Shown here piece after piece: positions 2,754 to 34,447 of a stretch of DNA of 64,000 nt. The stretch spans positions 124,001 to 188,000 of the forward strand of contig NZ_JACJPL010000001.1 of NCBI RefSeq assembly GCF_014696065.1, in the 5' to 3' direction. The first letter of the stretch is position 1, and the number at the start of each line of letters is the position of its first letter. Made by a program: the position numbers and the translations under genes. The stretch comes from Leptolyngbya sp. FACHB-261. Its GTDB lineage: Bacteria; Cyanobacteriota; Cyanobacteriia; FACHB-261. Below the pieces are notes generated by a model. That model ran no database searches, was not told the origin of the DNA, and saw nothing but the letters and a program-made list of their open reading frames with translations.

Positions 2754-3713
2754 TCAGGTTCGTTCTAATTGGATCGTGCGCACTAGCAATTCGGCAATGA
2801 TGTTCACCAACAAGGTCAAGCCAAATAAAACCAGTGCCGCGTACATCAGGGCTCCAATGTGAAGCGGCTCGACGGCCTCTCCAAACTGCGTTGCCAACAG
2901 CGAGGCGATCGTTTGGGACAGATCCAAAATACTGGGGCTGATCACAGGATTGTTGCCAATCACCATAGTCACGGCCATTGTTTCCCCCAAAGCTCGGCCT
3001 AAGCCCAGCATAGTTGCCCCGAGAATGCCCGAAGCGCCTGACGGTAAAAGCACTCTAAAGATGGTCTCCCAACGGGTCGCGCCCAAAGCCATTGATGCAC
3101 TGCGAAATTCTGATGGTAAGACCAACAGCACATCGCGAGAAATCGCAGCAATCGTCGGCAAAATCATAATCGCCAGCACGATTCCCGCCGTCATCAAGCC
3201 AAAGCCGGAAGCAGGTGTACTGAACAGGGGAAACCAACCGAGCTTCTCATTCAACCAGGTTTGAAACGGCAGCAAGAGTGGAATCAGCACGTTGACGCCC
3301 CAGAGGCCATAGATCACGCTGGGCACCGCCGCCAATAGCTCGACCATGAAAGACAAGGGAGTCCGTACGGCCCGTGGCAGAAAGTCTTCGGTGAGCACAA
3401 TTGCTACGCCAATACTGACCGGCACCGCCAAGACTAGGGCAATCAAAGAGCTGACCAAGGTGCCATAGGCCAGGGGCAAAACGCCAAATTTGAGATCCAG
3501 AACGTCCCAGTCAGCCGAGGTCAGAAAGCCCAAGCCAAACGCCTGAATGGCAGGCATTGCCCGACTACCAATCACCCCCGCCGTCACCAGCAAGACCCCC
3601 ACGACAAGCAACGCAAACAGCGCCGTCAGTGAGACAAAGAGTCGGTCCAGGATTCTTCGCAACGAACCGCTAGTGCCAAACTGCACTGGCGCCGACATCG
3701 CTCCCTCTGTCAT
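2754..3713 (-). CDS. pstC: Phosphate ABC transporter permease PstC
   Basis: PstC is the partner permease of PstA. The protein has 319 residues and about six transmembrane segments beginning near residue 27. The EAA-type coupling loop PSEFRSASMALGATRWETIF lies about two thirds of the way along, and the segment GRALGETMAVTMVIGN near residue 240 is characteristic of PstC. An internal Met at residue 6 is an alternative start. It is separated from pstS by about 165 bp containing a hairpin. Confidence 0.95.
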   Translation of the reverse strand: MTEGAMSAPVQFGTSGSLRRILDRLFVSLTALFALLVVGVLLVTAGVIGSRAMPAIQAFGLGFLTSADWDVLDLKFGVLPLAYGTLVSSLIALVLAVPVSIGVAIVLTEDFLPRAVRTPLSFMVELLAAVPSVIYGLWGVNVLIPLLLPFQTWLNEKLGWFPLFSTPASGFGLMTAGIVLAIMILPTIAAISRDVLLVLPSEFRSASMALGATRWETIFRVLLPSGASGILGATMLGLGRALGETMAVTMVIGNNPVISPSILDLSQTIASLLATQFGEAVEPLHIGALMYAALVLFGLTLLVNIIAELLVRTIQLERT

Positions 3714-3831
3714 AGGTTGACTACCTGTCTGTTCTGTATTCAGTGAAACTGTATTTAGTGAAAGACTCAGTGAAAAAGTCTGCTCTTATGCTGAGAACCG
3801 CCAACCATAAGCACCTTCTACCAGAAGTTAA

Positions 3832-22931: not shown

Positions 22932-24245
22932 ATGGAACTAGACATCGTACGGCTATTTGAGGCATGCAATCCCAGCAAGACGCTTATGGCTGAGCGGGAG
23001 GAAGATCGCCAATACTACATCGACTTTTCGCCCGTGCGCGGCGGCAAAATTATCAGGACTTTAGGCCGGACCGTCACCCTCTCTCCAGATAAGCCTACCT
23101 GCCAGCTTTTCACCGGTCACATCGGTTGTGGTAAATCAACCGAATTGTTTCGACTCAAAGCAGAATTAGAGAAGCAAGGTTTCCATGTCGTCTATTTTGA
23201 GTCCAACGAGGACCTAGATATGGGCGACATCGATATCACCGATATTTTGCTAGCCATTGCCCGCCAAGTCAGCGAGAGTTTAGAAACGCTCAAAATTAGG
23301 CTGCGTCCCAAATATTTCAGCAATCTTTTTGAAGAAGTTGCTGATTTCTTGAGAACACCTCTCGATTTAAATGCAGAGGCAGAACTGTCGTTGGGCATCG
23401 CCAAAATCACGGCTAAGACGAAAGATAGCCCTAAGCTTCGTAACCAGCTCCGGCAATACTTAGAGCCAAGAACGAAAGGCATCCTCACTTCAATTAATGA
23501 AGAACTCTTAGGCCATGCCAATCAGGAATTGCGACGCCAAGGCAAAAAGGGTCTAGTTGTCATTGTTGATAATTTAGATCGGGTTGATGTCCGTCCAATG
23601 GCTTCTGGTCGAACACAACCAGAGTATTTATTTGTCGATCGGGGTGAACAACTGGGCAAGTTGAATTGCCACGTGGTTTACACCATTCCACTAGTGCTCA
23701 TTTTCTCCAACGAACTAGGGGTTATTCAGAACCGCTTTAGCGGCGTCACTCCTGTAGTTCTACCTATGGTGCCGGTTCAGTTTCGCGATGGACGCGAATG
23801 CCAGGAAGGCATGGGACTGCTGCGGCAGATGGTTTTATCTAGGGCTTTCCCTCGGGTTGATGCTGGAGAGCGGCTCTCGCTATGCACCGAGTTATTTGAT
23901 AGTGCAGAAACTCTAGATCGGCTCTGCCGAGTAAGCGGTGGTCATGTGCGCAATTTACTAGGGTTGCTGTACGGTTGCATTCAACAGGAAGATCCTCCCA
24001 TTTCTCGCACCGTGTTAGAGGAAGTGATTCGTGCTGATCGAGACAATCGCACAGCCTCAGTCATGGATGACGAATGGGAACTGTTGCGGCAGGTGGTGCA
24101 GCAACAGAGTGTGGCCGGCGAGGCTGGACACGAACGGCTGTTGCGTAGCATGTTCGTGTTTGAGTACCGGGATGATCAAGGTCGCTGGTTTGGGGTTAAT
24201 CCGATTCTGGCTGAGTCCAATCGGTTTAAATTTTGCCTGAATTAA
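22932..24245 (+). CDS. P-loop ATPase (KAP/AAA-like), partner of the STAND-WD40 gene
   Basis: This 437-residue soluble ATPase has Walker A GHIGCGKST at 62-70 and Walker B VVIVDNLDRVD at 209-219. The D-N-L-D-R core is typical of KAP-type NTPases. A middle segment (120-200) is helical and the C-terminal third resembles the winged-helix region of STAND proteins. No membrane helices or nuclease motif are visible. Its stop is one base before the start of the next gene, so the two are surely co-expressed. The function is unknown; a sensor or regulator role is inferred only from the partner. Confidence 0.75.
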   Translation: MELDIVRLFEACNPSKTLMAEREEDRQYYIDFSPVRGGKIIRTLGRTVTLSPDKPTCQLFTGHIGCGKSTELFRLKAELEKQGFHVVYFESNEDLDMGDIDITDILLAIARQVSESLETLKIRLRPKYFSNLFEEVADFLRTPLDLNAEAELSLGIAKITAKTKDSPKLRNQLRQYLEPRTKGILTSINEELLGHANQELRRQGKKGLVVIVDNLDRVDVRPMASGRTQPEYLFVDRGEQLGKLNCHVVYTIPLVLIFSNELGVIQNRFSGVTPVVLPMVPVQFRDGRECQEGMGLLRQMVLSRAFPRVDAGERLSLCTELFDSAETLDRLCRVSGGHVRNLLGLLYGCIQQEDPPISRTVLEEVIRADRDNRTASVMDDEWELLRQVVQQQSVAGEAGHERLLRSMFVFEYRDDQGRWFGVNPILAESNRFKFCLN

Positions 24246-24246
24246 T

Positions 24247-27200
24247 ATGGCTGAACTAAGCCGCTCTGAAGCCATTCTGGCCCGTAACGAACAGTCGCTA
24301 AAGACGCTCATTCGTTCGATCCGGCTGTCTCAAGGTCGATTTGCGCTTATTTTAGTCCGCTGCAACTACAGCAACCTGCGGCAGAAGCTCATGGAGCGCC
24401 TGCACCAGATGTGCCCAGTGGCAATTCAAGAAATCACTCTCAGTGCGCCAACCCAAACTCTTTTCACAACTGTCCGCTCAGCCGTCGGTTCGCAGCAGCC
24501 TCCGGCTGTAGTGGTGTTGGGTTTAGAGTCGGCGATCGGTCAAGATCCTGCACCAGCAGTATTGTTATCGACCAATCAAGTGCGCGATGAATTTCGTCGC
24601 CATTTTCAGTTTCCTCTGGTCCTCTGGCTCAATGATGATGGTCTCAAAAAGCTGATTAAGTGTGCCCCTGATTTCAATAGCTGGGCGGCTCCTCCTATTG
24701 AATTTCTGGCCTCAGCCGAAGAGCTGATTACTGGCCTCCGTAACAACGCCGATCAACTATTCACCAAGATTCTCACAGCAGGTTCAGGCAGATTCGTTCA
24801 AGATTCGGCCCTGGAAATCGAAGCAGGTTCACGTCGCCGCTTTGAATTAGAAACGGCTTTGAACGATTTGCGCCAGTGGGGAGAGACTCTAGAGCCAGAA
24901 TTGGAAGCCAGCCTCCAATTTGTCTTAGGGCGAGATGCTTATGCAGAAGCCCGTATGGAGGAGGCGCGGCAATCCTACGAGCGCAGCTTAGCATTCTGGC
25001 AACACAGTCGTTACTTGGAACGACAGGGCGTCCTGCTATTTTATTTAGGTCTGTGGTGGCTGAAGCACGCTGATTTACATCGATCTGAACAACGCTCAGC
25101 TTGGAGGGCTGCGCAGAAGTATTGCCAGCGCTGTGTTGCAGTTTTTCAAAGAGCAAAGCGTCCTGACTTAGTTGCTAAATTCGTTAACGGCTTAGGCGAA
25201 GTTCTGCAATATTTGGGCAACTGGAACGAGCTAGAAGCTCTGACTACCCAAGCTCTAACTTTGCATGAACTCTATCGAGATTGGCCTAGGCTAGCGCAGG
25301 ATTACGGCTTCCTCGCGGAGATTGCCTTGGTGCGTTCGGCCTGGATGGAGGCCAAGCTCTACGCCGAAAAGTCATTGCAGATTTTGGCCGAAGCAGAGCA
25401 GGCTGAGCCAGCCGACAGCACTTATAGTACTCCTGAACATCAAGCAGCGGAGCTCGCTTGGGCTCGGCAATATCGGCAAGGGTTATATCGACTTTTATTG
25501 GCTAGAGCCCAGGAGCAATTTGGACAGCTTACAGAAGCTGAGACGAATTTAAAAATAGCGCAGGCAGAGACACAGCATCAATACAATCCACCGCTTTACA
25601 TTCGCATTCTGGAGATGCTGCGCTCGCTCCATTTTGAGCAAGGACAATATTTTGAAGCCTTTCAACTTCGGCAAGAGCAGCGCTCGATTGAGCAGCAATA
25701 CGGCTTTCGTGCTTTTGTGGGTGCTGGGCAGCTTCAGCCCAATCGCCAAAAGCTGGATCCAGCCCTTCCCGGCACGAGTCTTACCAATCAAGAAATTGCT
25801 GCCTCTGGCCGCACTCAAGATGTTAATCGCCTGATTGAGCGTATTGGACGCAATGACTTTTCCATCACCGTCATCCACGGGGAATCGGGCGTGGGTAAAA
25901 GCTCAATTGTTAACGCAGGACTAGCGCCAGTACTCCGTCAGGGGGCGATTAATGGCCGCGATGTACGTCCCGTCGTGCTGAGGAGCTACACGGACTGGAA
26001 AGGTTTACTGGGCGATTTGCTGCATGTGGAGCAAGAACCCCCAGTGCAAGAACCCTCATCGTCAAGAGCGCCTACCTCTAAAGCGACAATGCTTCTCAAG
26101 CAACTCGGTCAGAATGGCGAGCAAAACCTGCTTACTGTTCTGATTTTTGATCAGTTTGAAGAATTTTTCTTTATTCGCAATACACCTGCTCAGCGTCATG
26201 AATTTGTTAGTTTTTTAAGCGCTTGCCTTAAAATTCCATTTGTCAAAATCATTTTCTCATTGCGCGAAGATTACCTGCATTATTTGTTGGAATTCGAACG
26301 CAATAGTGGCTTGCAGGAAATTGATATTCTAAGTCGTCAAAACCGCTATCCGTTAGGCAACTTCTCACCCGATGATGCCCGTTCGGTCATTGAGAACCTG
26401 GCTCAACGAGCTCAGTTTTATTTGGAGCCAGCACTAGTCGATGAATTGGTGTGGGATTTAGCAGGTGACTTAGGTTCGGTTCGCCCAATTGAGTTACAAA
26501 TTGTTGGCGCTCAATTACAGGCTGAGAATATTGTTACCTTGGCCCAGTATCGGCGGCTCGGTCCTAAACAGAAACTAGTAGAGCGCTCACTACGGGAAAT
26601 TGTTCAAGCCTGTGGCCCTCGTAGCCAGTTTGCGGCGCAACAGGTGCTGTTATCGCTGACTAATGCCAATGGCACCCGCCCACCCAAAACCCGCGAGCAA
26701 TTAGCGGATGAGCTGGCTTCAGAAGCAGACCAACTCGATTTAATTCTGGAAATTCTAGTGGGCTCTGGCCTCATTTTCCTACTGCCTGAGGTCCCAACTG
26801 ATCGCTACCAACTCGTGCATGACTACTTAGTCCCTGTGATCCGGCGACAAGGAGAGGCAGGCTCTCTAACCGCGATGGTGGAACTGCGCAAGAAAGAGAG
26901 TGAAACGCTAATTTCCAGCGCCAAGGCCCTGTTTCAGGCCAACAAACAGCTGGAAGCGCTCCTAGCAGCCGTTAAGGCAGCACACCAGGTACGCTGGCTT
27001 ACTGAAATGCGGACCAATATCCCTAGCTCCACGCTGGGTGCATTACAGCAGATTGTGTATGAGACTCAGGAGCGCAATCGCTTAGAAGACCATAGCAGCG
27101 CAGTTTGGGCGGTGAGCTTCAGTCCTAACGGTCAACTACTCGCCTCCGCCAGTTGGGACTCAACGTTGAAGCTTTGGGGAATGGATGGCGCCCTTATATG

Positions 27201-28890
27201 CACGCTGACAGGGCATACGGACCGTGTGTACGACGTGTGCTTCAGCCCCAATGGAGAGTTATTGGCCTCGGCCAGTTGGGACAAAACCATCAAGCTCTGG
27301 AAACTCGATGGCACTTTACTGCAAACACTCAGCGGTCATGGCAGCTATATCAACAGTCTGAGTTTCAGCCCAGACGGTGAGTTGCTAGCCTCGGCTAGTT
27401 GGGACAAAACCATCAAGCTCTGGAAACTGGACGGTAGCTTACTCAACTCCATCAGCGGTCATGCAGATGGAGTTCGCTGTGTCTGCTTTAGCCCAGATGG
27501 TCAAACCCTGGCTTCCGCAAGTGCTGACCGAACGGTGAAACTCTGGAACTTAGATGGTCGCTTGCTACGCACCTTTAATGGGCACACAGACCGAGTCTAC
27601 AGTGTTAGCTTCAGCCCAGATGGCCAAACCCTGGCTTCCGCAAGTCGAGATCGAACGGTGAAGCTCTGGACCTTAAAGGGTGAATTGCTACGTACCCTCG
27701 ATAGCCACGGCGGCGGTGTCAATAGTGTGGGCTTTAGCCCCAACGGTCAAATGATTGCTTCCGCCAGTGCTGATGGGTCAGTGAAGCTTTGGAGTTATGG
27801 CGGTAGCCTGCTGAACAGCTTCAATGGACACGGCGGCTGGGTTACAGACGTTAGCTTCAGTTCTAGCCGCCCAATTCTGGCCTCCGCCTGCGACGATGCC
27901 AGCATCAAGCTCTGGAGCTTAGATGGACCTTTGGTGCAGACCTTCGAAGAACACGAAGACAGCGTTTGGACAGTAGGTTTCAGCCCAGATGGTCAACTGC
28001 TCGCTTCGGCGGGAGCGGAGGGCACCGTTCAGCTATGGGGCACCGAGGGCCAGTTGATCAATACCCTGATAGGACATCACGGCGAAATTGCGGAAGTGAG
28101 CTTTAGCCCAGATGGTCATCAGTTAGCTTCGGCAGGGGCAGACAGCACTATCAAGCTATGGTCTACAGAGGGTCATCTTCTTAGAACATTGACAGACCAT
28201 TATGGTTGGGTACACAGCATCAGCTTTAGCCCGGACGGAGAGCTGTTGGCTTCTGGTGGTGACGATAAAACCATTCGGATCTGGAGCGCTGAGGGAAACC
28301 TGCTCCAGGTTCTTAAAGGTCATCAGAGTTGGGTACACAGCGTCAAGTTCAGCCCAGATGGAGAGTTTTTGGCCTCAGCTAGTGCGGATCGAACCATCAA
28401 GCTGTGGCGACTAGATGGCCAACTGCTGCGGACCCTCAAAGGTCACCAGAGTTGGGTCCATAGTATTAGCTTTAGTCCAGATGGTGAACTCCTCGCTTCG
28501 GCCAGTGCTGATGGCAGCGTGAAGCTTTGGTCGGTGGAGGGGCAGTTGCTGAAAACCTTCAAGGGAAACAGCCAACGAGTTTTAGCGGTCAGTTTCAATC
28601 CCAACGGCAAAACGTTAGCTTCTGCAGGTGTTGACAAAACTGTTCGCTTGTGGACTTTGGAGGGCACTCTACTGAAAACGCTCACCGGCCATAACCATTG
28701 GGTGACTGGGCTGAGTTTTAGTCCTGATGGTGCCCAGATTGCTTCAGCTAGCGCGGACCACAGCATTAAGTTGTGGAATGCAGAGACGCTGGATTTTGGT
28801 GGACTGTTGAGCCGAGGGTGTAGCCATCTACGGGACTATCTGAGGACTCATCCCAAAGTCAGTACTGATGATCGCCAGCTGTGTAATTGA
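24247..28890 (+). CDS. STAND NTPase with TPR and 14 WD40 repeats
   Basis: This is a 1547-residue signalling protein. Residues 1-190 look like a degenerate P-loop domain without Walker A. Residues 200-500 are TPR-like helices. The nSTAND1-type NTPase follows with Walker A GESGVGKSS at 545-553 and Walker B VLIFDQFEEF around D635. Residues 948-1521 are 14 tandem WD40 repeats of exactly 41 residues, which would fold as two seven-bladed propellers. STAND proteins oligomerise when the sensor part binds its ligand, in signalling or in defence. No caspase, nuclease or TIR effector is fused, so the effector, if any, is the upstream ATPase or an unlinked protein. Confidence 0.85.
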   Translation: MAELSRSEAILARNEQSLKTLIRSIRLSQGRFALILVRCNYSNLRQKLMERLHQMCPVAIQEITLSAPTQTLFTTVRSAVGSQQPPAVVVLGLESAIGQDPAPAVLLSTNQVRDEFRRHFQFPLVLWLNDDGLKKLIKCAPDFNSWAAPPIEFLASAEELITGLRNNADQLFTKILTAGSGRFVQDSALEIEAGSRRRFELETALNDLRQWGETLEPELEASLQFVLGRDAYAEARMEEARQSYERSLAFWQHSRYLERQGVLLFYLGLWWLKHADLHRSEQRSAWRAAQKYCQRCVAVFQRAKRPDLVAKFVNGLGEVLQYLGNWNELEALTTQALTLHELYRDWPRLAQDYGFLAEIALVRSAWMEAKLYAEKSLQILAEAEQAEPADSTYSTPEHQAAELAWARQYRQGLYRLLLARAQEQFGQLTEAETNLKIAQAETQHQYNPPLYIRILEMLRSLHFEQGQYFEAFQLRQEQRSIEQQYGFRAFVGAGQLQPNRQKLDPALPGTSLTNQEIAASGRTQDVNRLIERIGRNDFSITVIHGESGVGKSSIVNAGLAPVLRQGAINGRDVRPVVLRSYTDWKGLLGDLLHVEQEPPVQEPSSSRAPTSKATMLLKQLGQNGEQNLLTVLIFDQFEEFFFIRNTPAQRHEFVSFLSACLKIPFVKIIFSLREDYLHYLLEFERNSGLQEIDILSRQNRYPLGNFSPDDARSVIENLAQRAQFYLEPALVDELVWDLAGDLGSVRPIELQIVGAQLQAENIVTLAQYRRLGPKQKLVERSLREIVQACGPRSQFAAQQVLLSLTNANGTRPPKTREQLADELASEADQLDLILEILVGSGLIFLLPEVPTDRYQLVHDYLVPVIRRQGEAGSLTAMVELRKKESETLISSAKALFQANKQLEALLAAVKAAHQVRWLTEMRTNIPSSTLGALQQIVYETQERNRLEDHSSAVWAVSFSPNGQLLASASWDSTLKLWGMDGALICTLTGHTDRVYDVCFSPNGELLASASWDKTIKLWKLDGTLLQTLSGHGSYINSLSFSPDGELLASASWDKTIKLWKLDGSLLNSISGHADGVRCVCFSPDGQTLASASADRTVKLWNLDGRLLRTFNGHTDRVYSVSFSPDGQTLASASRDRTVKLWTLKGELLRTLDSHGGGVNSVGFSPNGQMIASASADGSVKLWSYGGSLLNSFNGHGGWVTDVSFSSSRPILASACDDASIKLWSLDGPLVQTFEEHEDSVWTVGFSPDGQLLASAGAEGTVQLWGTEGQLINTLIGHHGEIAEVSFSPDGHQLASAGADSTIKLWSTEGHLLRTLTDHYGWVHSISFSPDGELLASGGDDKTIRIWSAEGNLLQVLKGHQSWVHSVKFSPDGEFLASASADRTIKLWRLDGQLLRTLKGHQSWVHSISFSPDGELLASASADGSVKLWSVEGQLLKTFKGNSQRVLAVSFNPNGKTLASAGVDKTVRLWTLEGTLLKTLTGHNHWVTGLSFSPDGAQIASASADHSIKLWNAETLDFGGLLSRGCSHLRDYLRTHPKVSTDDRQLCN
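27088..28809 (+). repeat. 14 tandem 123-bp WD40-coding repeats
   Basis: Each unit encodes 41 residues of the form (G)H-x5-V-x-x-V-x-FSPDG-x-x-LASAS-x-D-x-T-x-KLW-x-x-x-G-x-LL-x-T. There is no length variation across 14 copies. Neighbouring copies 2/3 and 4/5 are nearly identical at DNA level over some 45-50 bases, indicating recent duplication or gene conversion. Copy 7 has the most altered core (FSSSRPILASACDD). Confidence 0.95.
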
Positions 28891-29693: not shown

Positions 29694-31658
29694 GTGGATC
29701 CGTCGCCTAATGCTTCTATAACCGGGGAATCGCTCTGGTTGCTTGCAGAGTTAGCAGGCGAATTCAGTACGGCAGTTGATCTTGAGGGCTTGCAACAAAT
29801 CCTTAGCCGTAAATTGCGCTGGCTCTTCGATTTCGACCGTTGCACATTAGCGATTCGAGTTGAGCCAGACGATGATCGCTATTGGTTGGTGGATGTTACT
29901 GGGCCAGAACAATTCAAGCAAAAACCGGCACAAAGATTGCTGATGGACGCTGGTTGGCCAGGCCAGGTTTTTCGAGAAGCAAAGCCTTATTTCGTAACTG
30001 ATGTAAAAAACCTGCCACTAGAGCAAACCCCAATAGCAACAACTGACAACGGTATCTGTGATGATGCCCGTTCGCTCATGTTGCTGCCGCTCTGCTTTGG
30101 CAATCAAATAATTGGCAGCTTAAACTTTAGCTCTAAAACGGCTCATGCCTATTCGATAATTTGGCGCAATCTTGCCAGTTTACTAGTCGCTCAGCTTGCA
30201 GGCCAGTTGGGCTCTATTTTGGCCCATGAACGGACTAGCACAGCGCTCTATGCCTTGCAACAGTTTCAGCTTCAGGTACAACAACAGACAGAGCGAGAAC
30301 GCTTGTTGGGAGGGATTGCTCTGCGCATTCGGCAATCCTTGGAGCTTAGCGAAATCCTCAAAGCGATTGTGCGTGAAGTCCGCCAGTTTCTCAATACTGA
30401 CCGGGTAGTCATTTACCAGTTCAACCAAGATTGGGAAGGACAAGTCATTGTTGAGGAAGTCATGAGCCCTTGGCCTTCAACCCTTGGTGATACTGGTCAA
30501 GACAATTGCTTCAGCCAAGAGTACGCCCATCTATACGCTAGTGGACGCGTGCGTGCCATCTCTGATATTGATGCGGCTGGCTTAGATACCTGCCATGTGA
30601 AGTTTTTGCGTAGCCTGAAGGTCCGGGCTAACTTAATTGTGCCAATCTTGATCGGCTCTCGCCTCTGGGGCCTCTTGGTCGCTCATGAGTGCAGTGCTGC
30701 TCGGCTTTGGCAGGACTCAGAAATTGACTTGCTACAACGTTTGGCCGATCACATTGGCATTGCCATTAGTCAGGCTGAACTTCATGCGCAAATTCAAGCT
30801 TCAGCAGCACAATTCCAGGGTCAGGCAGAAAGATTGCGAGCGACACTAGAGGAGTTGCAGGCAGCTCAGACGCAGCTTATCCAGAGCGAAAAAATGTCAA
30901 GTCTGGGACAGATGGTAGCGGGGGTAGCCCATGAAATCAACAATCCGATTAACTTCATCCATGCCAATTTGCCCCACGCGCAGGAGTACGTTGAGATCCT
31001 AGAGCAAGTTATTGCTACCTATGCTGCTCGCAGTCCGGAGCCGCCAGCAGAAATCGTTCGATTAAATAACGAGTTTGAGCTAGATTACATTCGCCAAGAC
31101 TTTCCCAAACTGCTGAAATCAATGCGGGAAGGAACAGAACGAGTGCGGGATATTGTGCGCACCTTACGCAACTTCTCCCGTCTGGATCAGGCTCAGCGTA
31201 AATCAGTCGATCTGCATGAAGGTTTAGAGAGTAGTCTGCTGCTGCTGCAATACCGCTTCAAACCGAGCGTTAAATTGACGCGCCGTTACAGCGCTTTGCC
31301 ACTGGTCGAATGCTACGCCGGTCAGATCAACCAGGTCTTTATGAACTTGTTGAGCAATGCCCTTGATGCAAGTGTTGATGCAGGTGCTGATTCGGTCGAG
31401 CTAACCGTTACAACCCTATGGAGCGAGCCGGATTGGGTTAGCATTGCCATTCGCGATAATGGTCCTGGTATTCCAGCTGCCATTCGCGATCGCATTTTCG
31501 ATCCCTTTTTCACCACGAAGGAAGTCGGCAAGGGCACCGGGCTTGGCCTATCAATCTGTTACAAAATTGTTGTCGAGGAACACAAAGGAAGAATCGAGTG
31601 CTTCAGTGAGCCGGGAAAGGGCACTGAATTCCGCATTCATTTGCCATTGCGCGCTTGA
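29694..31658 (+). CDS. GAF-GAF histidine kinase, predicted DXCF cyanobacteriochrome
   Basis: The 654-residue soluble sensor kinase starts at GTG 29694. GAF1 spans about 20-175 and GAF2 about 215-365, followed by a coiled coil, HisKA with H413 ([11 protein letters not shown]) and an HATPase domain ([23 protein letters not shown]). GAF2 has the bilin-attachment pair C300-H301 in [21 protein letters not shown], and an upstream D270-N-C272-F. The 28-residue gap between the cysteines equals that of TePixJ (Cys494/Cys522). It should therefore bind a bilin and sense blue to green light. No cognate response regulator is adjacent. GAF1 lacks the Cys-His pair. Confidence 0.85.
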
Positions 31659-31713: not shown

Positions 31714-32481
31714 CTAAACTGGTGCATGCTCAAGCTGGCAGTAGGGCAAGCTGTAGCTTAGGGGTAGCTCTAAAGCATGTTGATCTAAAAATTCTGAGTT
31801 GCTGAGCACTTGCTCGGTTGGACCGTCAAAAACAATCTGACCATGGCTTAAAACAACAGTGCGTTCGCACAGCTCAAGTGCTAGATCAAGATCGTGAGTT
31901 GCAATAAGTTTGGTCTGGGGCAAGGTTTCAACTAGCTGAATTAAGCGGCGACGAGAGCGGGGGTCCAATTGTGCGGAGGGTTCATCAAAGACCAGAACCT
32001 GAGGCTGCATGGCCAGTACCCCAGCAATTGCCACTCGTTTTTTCTCACCGCCCGATAAATTGTTGGCATTGCGTTGGGCATAATCACTGGGGCTAAGGCC
32101 GACATCGACCAGAGCATGGGTGACGCGATGTTCTAATTCATTGCCCCTCAAGCCCTGATTCATAGGACCAAAAGCAACGTCATCCCAAACGGTTGGCATG
32201 AACAATTGGTCGTCTGGATTCTGAAATACTAAACCAACAAAATTGCGGATGTGTTGCAGATTTTGAGGTTCGATTGGCCATTCACCAACGACTACAGAAC
32301 CGAACTGGGGGGTCAAAATGCCGTTGAAATGTAACAGCAACGTCGATTTACCAGAGCCATTGGCACCCACTAGGGCAATCGTTTCACCAGCCCGAACCTC
32401 TAAATCTACACCTCGCAAGGCTTGAGTACCGTCCGTGTAAATGTAACTTAGCTGCTGAATTGAAATCGGATTGTGATGCAT
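31714..32481 (-). CDS. cbiO: Nickel/cobalt ECF transporter ATPase CbiO/NikO
   Basis: This is the ATPase of an energy-coupling-factor importer for Ni2+ or Co2+. The 255 residues carry Walker A GANGSGKST at 39-47, a Q-loop GLVFQNPDDQLF, signature LSGGEKKRVAIAGVLA and Walker B VLVFDEPSAQLD. The QNPDDQ motif is typical of ECF A-components. It is the last gene of the cbiM-N-Q-O operon, 23 bp after cbiQ. Confidence 0.93.
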   Translation of the reverse strand: MHHNPISIQQLSYIYTDGTQALRGVDLEVRAGETIALVGANGSGKSTLLLHFNGILTPQFGSVVVGEWPIEPQNLQHIRNFVGLVFQNPDDQLFMPTVWDDVAFGPMNQGLRGNELEHRVTHALVDVGLSPSDYAQRNANNLSGGEKKRVAIAGVLAMQPQVLVFDEPSAQLDPRSRRRLIQLVETLPQTKLIATHDLDLALELCERTVVLSHGQIVFDGPTEQVLSNSEFLDQHALELPLSYSLPYCQLEHAPV

Positions 32482-32504
32482 GAACGGAATAATTACAGAG
32501 ATCG

Positions 32505-33281
32505 CTAGAGCAGATAAACACTCTGTCCCAGCAGAGTCAGGACAGCTACCAGGGTTAGCGCTAGAACATCACGCCGTCCACCTTTAGGCAGCTCACGTAT
32601 TGGCGGTAGCCCCTGATATCCCCGCGACTTCATCGCCTGATAAACCCGTTCTCCTCGCTGAAAAGAGCGGATAAACAGAATTCCGATCATGTTGCCAAGC
32701 ACTTGGCGTTGCCAGCGACCGTTGCCGGAAAAATTGCGAGAAGTTGCAGCCCGTCGCATGCAACTGACCTCCTCAAGAATGACCGCAATATAGCGGTACA
32801 TAGACTCGAGAATTGCCACCAATAACTTCGGTGTGCGAAGGGAAACTAGGGCATGCAGCAAGGCTGGGACTGAGGTGGTGAGAATCAGCAAGTTGAGCGT
32901 CAGCAGGGACAGCAAGGCCTTGAGCGTCACACTCCCCAGTACCTCCAGCCCCTCGGTCGTAATTTGCAGCCAGCCCCACTGCCAGATCACATCACCACCC
33001 TCTCTAAACAGAGTGCTGAGCAGCAAAACGCTGACGAACACAGACTCCATCGCTACCCGCCGCAGCAAGACAGGTAAGGTAATCCGGCTGGACAGAATCA
33101 TTCCTATTAGGCCCAAACCATAAATTGCCCAAGTCCACCACCGCCCATTGGGCGTGAGGGCGATGGCAAAGACCATCAATAAGGCACATAACAACCGGGT
33201 GCGGGGCGCGAGTGATTGCCAGGGGGCTCGCTGATGACTATCTACGTCAAGACGAAACGCGCCGATATGTAGAAGCAGCAT
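32505..33281 (-). CDS. cbiQ: ECF transporter transmembrane T-component CbiQ
   Basis: The 258-residue membrane protein has about five helices. The two coupling motifs that contact CbiO are visible in SMYRYIAVILEEVSCMRRAATSRN and RSFQRGERVYQAMKSRGYQG (near residue 210), including the A-x-x-x-RG signature of T-components. It follows the cbiN-like gene by 25 bp. Confidence 0.9.
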   Translation of the reverse strand: MLLLHIGAFRLDVDSHQRAPWQSLAPRTRLLCALLMVFAIALTPNGRWWTWAIYGLGLIGMILSSRITLPVLLRRVAMESVFVSVLLLSTLFREGGDVIWQWGWLQITTEGLEVLGSVTLKALLSLLTLNLLILTTSVPALLHALVSLRTPKLLVAILESMYRYIAVILEEVSCMRRAATSRNFSGNGRWQRQVLGNMIGILFIRSFQRGERVYQAMKSRGYQGLPPIRELPKGGRRDVLALTLVAVLTLLGQSVYLL

Positions 33282-33306
33282 CAGATCGAATCGCCACCTA
33301 AGCTAC

Positions 33307-33645
33307 TCATGGCAAATCGCTAGAAGAGTCAGACTTACGCGCGACTAGCTTGCCCAATCCCCAGGCCAAGCCGAAGGTCAACAGAGTACCCACAAAGCCA
33401 GCTAGGGGAGTTGCCACACTTTCAGGCACGCCCTTAACGGCATAACCGTCAAAGATGCTAGCGAAGGGAAGCTTCTGAGCCGGGGGTTCAGCAGCCTCAC
33501 GCTGATCAAAACCTAGATCTCCAGCGACACGGTTGAGACCATCTGGATCAGAGCTGGCAAACGGGGAGAGAAAAAGGGCAATCAGCAAAGCGGTGCCCAA
33601 ACCAGCCAAAACAAAATTACGGTTTCTCTGAGAGTTGTTGTCCAT
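33307..33645 (-). CDS. cbiN: CbiN/PDGLE-domain subunit of the metal transporter
   Basis: The 112-residue protein has a hydrophobic helix at the N-terminus (about 11-28) and another near 82-103, with an intervening loop that opens with the SSDPDGLNRVAGDLGF segment. This is the PDGLE domain found with CbiM/NikM transporters, where it plays the role of CbiN. Gene order supports the assignment. It is 37 bp downstream of cbiM. Confidence 0.85.
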   Translation of the reverse strand: MDNNSQRNRNFVLAGLGTALLIALFLSPFASSDPDGLNRVAGDLGFDQREAAEPPAQKLPFASIFDGYAVKGVPESVATPLAGFVGTLLTFGLAWGLGKLVARKSDSSSDLP

Positions 33646-33682
33646 AGGGTCTCAATGGCAGGATGAAACATTGGCAAAAGGC

Positions 33683-34447
33683 TTAGCGGGCAACAGGCGG
33701 ACGAGAGAATGGTGCCAGGGATTTACGCGGTGGATCAAAAATCAAATCAGGCCGGGAACGCCAGACGAAACTGAGTGCCACTACTGTAATCAGCGCCTCG
33801 CCTATACCGATTAGTACATGCCAAAAGGTCATCGCGCTTAGAGCCACCACCAACGGAACTGTTCCTGACACCGCTAGTTGAAATGCGACAATAACTGCGC
33901 CAACGACAACACTAACCCAGGCAGCCACTGCCGCACCGATTTGTGCGCTGCGCAGATTATCACGTCCTAAAACATAGCGAATGCTCTTGTAGATGTAGTA
34001 ACCCCCAAAGGTACCAACCAACCCCATGACGAAAATGTTTGCCCCTAAAACAGTGAGGCCCCCATCTTGGAAAAAGATACTCTGAACGATGAATACAGCA
34101 GTTACAGCCAAGGAACCGGCCCACGGCCCCAAAAAGGCCCCCGCCAGGGTGCCACCAACCAGATGACCGGAGGTGCCACCGGGAATCGGAAAGTTGATCA
34201 TCTGAGCCGCAAAAATGAAGGCTGCACAGACTCCTATTAGGGGAACTGTACGCTCCTGAAGTTCTGTCTGTACCCGATTAAGGGCCAATGCCAGAAACCC
34301 AATGGTCACGACCCAAAACACCAGGCTGACTGGCAAACTCAGGAAGCCATCTGGGATGTGCAATGCCAATCGGGGCTGGATGCTCCAGGCTAAATAGTTG
34401 GAAAACATAGGGCTGGATAGAGGGCCAGATAAAACTGCTGAGATCAC
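33683..34447 (-). CDS. cbiM: Nickel/cobalt-binding substrate subunit CbiM
   Basis: CbiM is the substrate-specific membrane subunit. Its signature HIPDGFLS normally follows the initiator Met; here it is preceded by 29 residues with a hydrophobic stretch ending QPRLA. If that is a cleaved signal, the mature protein would begin L-H30, keeping His at position 2, as needed for the N-terminal metal site. The remaining 225 residues give about six to seven helices with INFPIPGGTSGHLVGGTL. No cobalamin riboswitch was found upstream, so nickel or cobalt cannot be decided. Confidence 0.9.
   Translation of the reverse strand: MISAVLSGPLSSPMFSNYLAWSIQPRLALHIPDGFLSLPVSLVFWVVTIGFLALALNRVQTELQERTVPLIGVCAAFIFAAQMINFPIPGGTSGHLVGGTLAGAFLGPWAGSLAVTAVFIVQSIFFQDGGLTVLGANIFVMGLVGTFGGYYIYKSIRYVLGRDNLRSAQIGAAVAAWVSVVVGAVIVAFQLAVSGTVPLVVALSAMTFWHVLIGIGEALITVVALSFVWRSRPDLIFDPPRKSLAPFSRPPVAR

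Follow-up and report, generated by a model that had tools for sequence, protein, structure and literature searches.

The window analysed here, a stretch of 64,000 nucleotides from Leptolyngbya sp. FACHB-261, encodes a soluble kinase that we read as having two inputs: GAF2, a DXCF cyanobacteriochrome (CBCR) domain with a blue-absorbing dark state, and, in front of it, GAF1, a separate sensor linked to CMD/AhpD-like proteins. We put the probability of this reading at about 0.8. The gene product is very probably a known type of light-switched enzyme, a two-cysteine (DXCF) CBCR kinase, and the DXCF CBCR kinase itself is an ordinary member of its class; what is new here is a second sensor, apparently swapped in from a little-noticed CMD-GAF gene pair. 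A previous sequence-only reading of this DNA had predicted the photoreceptor and passed over GAF1.

Architecture of the kinase gene

The 654-aa protein is a soluble GAF-GAF-histidine kinase (Table 1). It has both the phospho-acceptor histidine and the HATPase_c boxes of a histidine kinase: HATPase_c is matched in Pfam with an E-value of 2.4e-29, and the boxes read AHEINNP with H413, DNGPGI at 588, FFTTK at 605 and GTGLGL at 614, while the HisKA match in Pfam covers the first helix only. The hydropathy maximum (1.7, averaged over 19 residues) falls within the GAF2 core, so that no transmembrane segment is indicated, and the earlier description of the kinase core as complete and soluble is borne out. 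Promoter and terminator scans returned numbers of sites at about the level of chance.

As for the surroundings, genes that look by eye like a cobalt/nickel uptake operon (CbiO, CbiQ, CbiN and CbiM) lie at 31714-34447 on the - strand, convergent with the kinase gene. Upstream of the CMD-kinase pair, the region 22932-28890 encodes an AAA ATPase and then an nSTAND protein of 1547 aa, in which about 14 WD40 repeats are present.

Table 1. Features of the kinase gene and of the gene upstream (positions in the window)
Feature	Position	Strand	Basis and remarks
CMD/AhpD-like protein, 195 aa	29037..29624	+	69 bp upstream of kinase; Pfam CMD E 1.7e-7
GAF1-GAF2(DXCF CBCR)-histidine kinase	29694..31658	+	654 aa, GTG start; ORF and Pfam
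GAF1, residues 33-169	29790..30200	+	Pfam GAF_2; appears non-bilin, related to CMD-linked GAFs
GAF2, residues 217-358, DXCF cyanobacteriochrome domain	30342..30767	+	Pfam GAF, PDB sequence and fold matches, tree
DNCF motif (270-273), second cysteine C272	30501..30512	+	
C300-H301, predicted canonical bilin attachment	30591..30596	+	
H413, predicted phospho-acceptor His in AHEINNP	30930..30932	+	HisKA match 404-429 and motif
HATPase_c, residues 544-653	31323..31652	+	Pfam

GAF2 groups with bilin-binding photoreceptor domains

The photoreceptor assignment had been drawn from C300-H301 and an upstream D270-N-C272-F, from the distance of 28 residues between C272 and C300, as in TePixJ, and from CBCR-like motifs in the rest of GAF2; all of these are present in the translation of the 29694-31658 ORF. 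Compared by sequence with solved structures, GAF2 matched PPHK (E 4e-39), RcaE (3.4e-35) and TePixJ (3vv4; phmmer, 1.5e-34). The TePixJ alignment is gapless over 137 residues and sets DNCF against DPCF and CH against CH; the cysteine spacing equals that of Cys494 and Cys522 in TePixJ (PMC6955287). The TePixJ residues that contact the bilin or move with it include D492, C522, H523, Q526 and N535 (PMC6955287); at a constant offset of 222 they correspond to D270, C300, H301, F304 and N313, four being identical and Q526 being replaced by F304. An AlphaFold model, for which 40 locus sequences were used, reaches a mean pLDDT of 92, and its nearest PDB folds are PPHK, the miRFP670nano fluorescent proteins, TePixJ, AnPixJ and RcaE. 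The profile search that had been proposed as a check thus gave bilin-binding GAF domains as the best matches, in sequence and in fold, and nothing that places GAF2 outside the bilin clade.

A maximum-likelihood tree built from 69 GAF domains places GAF2 among bilin-binding CBCR domains, in a clade of 15 members (support 96/85) that all have a cysteine at position 272, the canonical cysteine being present in 13. The subclade of GAF2 differs from that of TePixJ, and its photocycle may therefore differ too. Two domains near this clade, L027 (GAF 1591-2025) and L075 (GAF 3367-3801), keep the DXCF cysteine and have lost the canonical one (EH and AH, respectively).

The GAF2-kinase part is also found in kinases of similar length from four other genomes, with 60% identity over GAF2; over the kinase part, identity is 65% for L006 and 51% for L004. 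All relatives sampled lie outside the family and genus of the host. Both C272 and C300 are kept in the four full-length relatives, which argues for more than a chance motif. A contig profile search with the full-length alignment returned mostly kinase-domain matches and added few CBCR relatives. The host genome has one PcyA-family gene and one heme oxygenase, and 30 matches to the GAF2 domain at E 1e-5. Its closest paralogue in the host, L037:6705-9425 on contig 24, matches at about 61-63% over the CBCR GAF; this is a MHYT-PAS-GAF-kinase of membrane type that carries DDCF and CH.

It is the motifs, the profile, fold and tree evidence, the cysteines kept in all four relatives and the presence of heme oxygenase and PcyA that together lead us to a DXCF CBCR kinase. 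GAF2 is a DXCF CBCR domain by its Asp-Xaa-Cys-Phe with second cysteine, by its canonical Cys-His and by its tree neighbours, and it is predicted to bind a bilin. No response regulator was recognised when the translations of the neighbouring ORFs in the window were read, in agreement with the earlier account, and none was found in the 16-kb regions around the four relatives, whose gene neighbourhoods differ from that of the window; the kinase is an orphan in the window and in these relatives.

GAF1 and the CMD-GAF gene pair

GAF1 appears to be a separate, non-bilin sensor linked to CMD proteins, and its input is probably chemical. Its fold model resembles small-molecule GAFs, including the cAMP-bound 5w10, among PDB matches. 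The closest counterpart is the GAF of L124, a 456-aa kinase of genome G113, with 86/172 identical residues (50%), while the kinase part of L124 is unlike that of the window kinase (70/301). At E 1e-12 or better, GAF1 was found in three of 291 cyanobacterial genomes. The third of them, G093, encodes a kinase (L125:5737-7623) with a GAF1 homologue followed by a second GAF, which is weakly bilin-like (PPHK 9.5e-7), with CH aligned and DXCF absent; near L125, the opposite strand encodes a REC-like protein. The window kinase looks like a chimera in which a CMD-linked GAF has been added to a light-sensing kinase.

The CMD/AhpD-like gene is a probable operon partner of the kinase. In G113, the gene directly upstream of L124 encodes a counterpart of the 195-aa CMD/AhpD-like protein, with 59% identity. 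This AhpD-like subfamily occurs in 22 of the 390 cyanobacterial genomes that were sampled, and in 15 of these it adjoins, or is fused to, a GAF protein, mostly a cyclase: it stands directly beside a GAF-kinase in three genomes (the window's, G113 and G179) and directly beside a GAF-adenylate/guanylate cyclase in 11, and in G329 one reading frame encodes a GAF followed by the AhpD-like domain. This fusion (L171:1-1998) combines an AAA-like region with a GAF and with a CMD domain in which CxxC..H is retained (ECLYCVKAH). Six of the 15 positives come from genus g23, so that the positives span ten genera. In the seven other genomes, all of genus g54, no GAF neighbour of the AhpD-like gene was found. 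The arrangement of a CMD/AhpD-like gene immediately before a GAF-headed kinase or adenylate/guanylate cyclase recurs in cyanobacteria, in the window and at L124, L127, L135-L143, L149, L150, L166, L167 and L169. GAF1 and the GAFs of the cyclases are supported as homologues, though distant ones: identity is 25%, and the best whole-genome match of GAF1 is the CMD-adjacent GAF in three of the eight genomes tested (G179, G304 and G313). In the literature searched, no paper was found on a connection between carboxymuconolactone decarboxylase and cyanobacterial kinases or cyclases with GAF domains.

The catalytic motif of AhpD is a CxxC pair followed by a His. The 195-aa protein reads HC80EYV83RVVH87, with a single cysteine, and its match to the NCBIfam AhpD domain is below the cut-off; moreover, both catalytic cysteines are gone in two aligned cyclase-linked copies. 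Such losses suggest that the AhpD-like protein is a regulator more than a peroxidase.

It is conceivable, at somewhat less than even odds, that the pairing is incidental and that GAF1 is unlinked to the upstream gene, merely a dimerisation or spacer domain. Indeed, in the four GAF2-kinase relatives the first GAF is unrelated and no CMD gene adjoins the kinase, and in the seven g54 genomes the CMD gene has no GAF gene next to it. Against this, 14 genomes from several families have a GAF-kinase or GAF-cyclase next to the AhpD-like gene, and in a fifteenth it is fused to a GAF. The similarity of GAF1 is also far higher to the L124 GAF, which is CMD-linked (z 70), than to the domain that comes first in the four relatives (z 3-6). 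We retain the view that GAF1 is probably a CMD-linked sensor. Rather speculatively, a catalytically degenerate AhpD-like protein and a GAF-headed kinase or cyclase may form a two-gene sensing module of cyanobacteria, whose GAF would in this lineage have been fused before a DXCF light-sensing kinase, so that one enzyme would combine blue light with a small-molecule signal, peroxide-related or other.

Sub-class and colour

Two other CBCR sub-classes were ruled out. In the case of extended red/green (XRG) domains, WXDXXL is absent from GAF2 at the aligned position, C272 is present, and the tree separates GAF2 from the WXDXXL clade. Green/red domains of the RcaE/CcaS type have the triad E/L/K (RcaE E217, L249 and K261), and E, CL and K were found in all 15 sampled domains of this type; GAF2 has N271/H301/N313 instead, and the tree likewise speaks against this assignment.

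Control by blue and green light had been predicted for the kinase. A blue-absorbing dark state is a good prediction for a DXCF domain. Blue/green is the usual pair of colours in such domains, yet published photoproducts of DXCF domains range from teal to orange (PMC6628166), which makes the photoproduct colour unpredictable and 'blue/green' a default expectation rather than a result. PCB-to-PVB isomerisation is typical of DXCF domains (PMC11284453).

The roles of the second cysteine do vary. The adduct of AM1_1186g2 forms in the photoproduct (PMC6628166), the second cysteine of AM1_6305g1 is dispensable for isomerisation (PMC11284453), and GAF2 is not in the TePixJ subclade; GAF2 might thus bind a bilin with C272 forming no C10 adduct, or forming it only in the photoproduct, and have a green, orange or red dark state. 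We consider this improbable, since AM1_1186g2 belongs to the XRG lineage and has its second cysteine at another position (PMC6628166), whereas in GAF2 position, spacing and motif are those of a typical DXCF domain and the RcaE-type triad is absent. That GAF2 has kept its cysteines and lost light sensing, leaving the kinase under the control of GAF1 only, is very improbable: the canonical cysteine is missing in some clade members (L027, L075), but the two cysteines are conserved, along with D270, H301 and N313, in this protein and its four full-length relatives, across two families.

Proposed mechanism and significance

The sequence itself shows the order of the domains, the two cysteines with their conservation, the homology to bilin GAFs, the kinase motifs, the genes for bilin synthesis and the recurrence of the CMD-GAF pair. 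Taking GAF2 as a light sensor with a blue-absorbing dark state, we infer chromophore binding, colour, direction of kinase control, kinase target and GAF1 ligand along the following lines. Phycocyanobilin would be attached at C300 and possibly isomerised to phycoviolobilin, and C272 would add reversibly to C10 of the bilin to give the blue-absorbing dark state. Blue light would then cause C15=C16 isomerisation and release of C272, yielding a photoproduct that absorbs at longer wavelength (teal, green or orange). The change in GAF2 could be passed through the helix that follows it to the phospho-acceptor domain with H413, altering kinase activity, and the kinase would act on an unlinked response regulator. 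GAF1, in front, would be a sensor of its own that binds no bilin, is probably connected with the upstream AhpD-like protein and modulates the same kinase.

As a CBCR kinase, the protein extends the list of predicted blue-absorbing photoreceptors by one that has a compact, soluble kinase, a useful if ordinary addition. The recurring link between AhpD-like proteins and GAF signalling enzymes is the more useful part, as it gives GAF1 a testable partner and input; the kinase would be a natural example of an enzyme that takes in both light and chemical signals.

Comparison with known systems

The GAF of TePixJ (PDB 4FOF, 4GLQ, 3VV4 and 6PRU), a blue/green DXCF CBCR, shares with GAF2 the DXCF and CH cysteines, 28 residues apart, the residues D492/C522/H523/N535 (D270/C300/H301/N313 here) and the fold (TM 0.85-0.91, target-normalised). 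It differs in overall sequence (about 39% identity), in its tree subclade, in Q526, which is F304 here, and in its chemotaxis-type output, as opposed to a histidine kinase. RcaE, a green/red CBCR (PDB 7CKV and 8K9O), likewise carries a CBCR GAF on a histidine kinase and has a similar QEYxxLYxxGRVRAI stretch; unlike GAF2, it has no second cysteine, and its CL and E/K triad residues are absent from the window protein.

The best match of GAF2 in both sequence and fold (TM 0.89) is PPHK of Leptolyngbya sp. JSC-1 (PDB 6OAP, 6OAQ and 6OB8). PPHK is also a dual-sensor CBCR histidine kinase, in which a second sensor precedes the CBCR GAF and both feed one kinase; it lacks the DXCF cysteine (DQYF). Its first sensor, a receiver, is a phosphorylation-responsive domain, whereas here it is a GAF. 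Finally, the CMD-GAF pairs (the L124 kinase and the cyclases L135-L141, L143, L149 and L150) have the AhpD-like gene directly upstream of a GAF-headed enzyme, as in the window, with a GAF that is strongly similar to GAF1 in L124 and weakly so in the cyclases; they differ in that in none of them does a CBCR GAF separate the linked GAF from the output domain.
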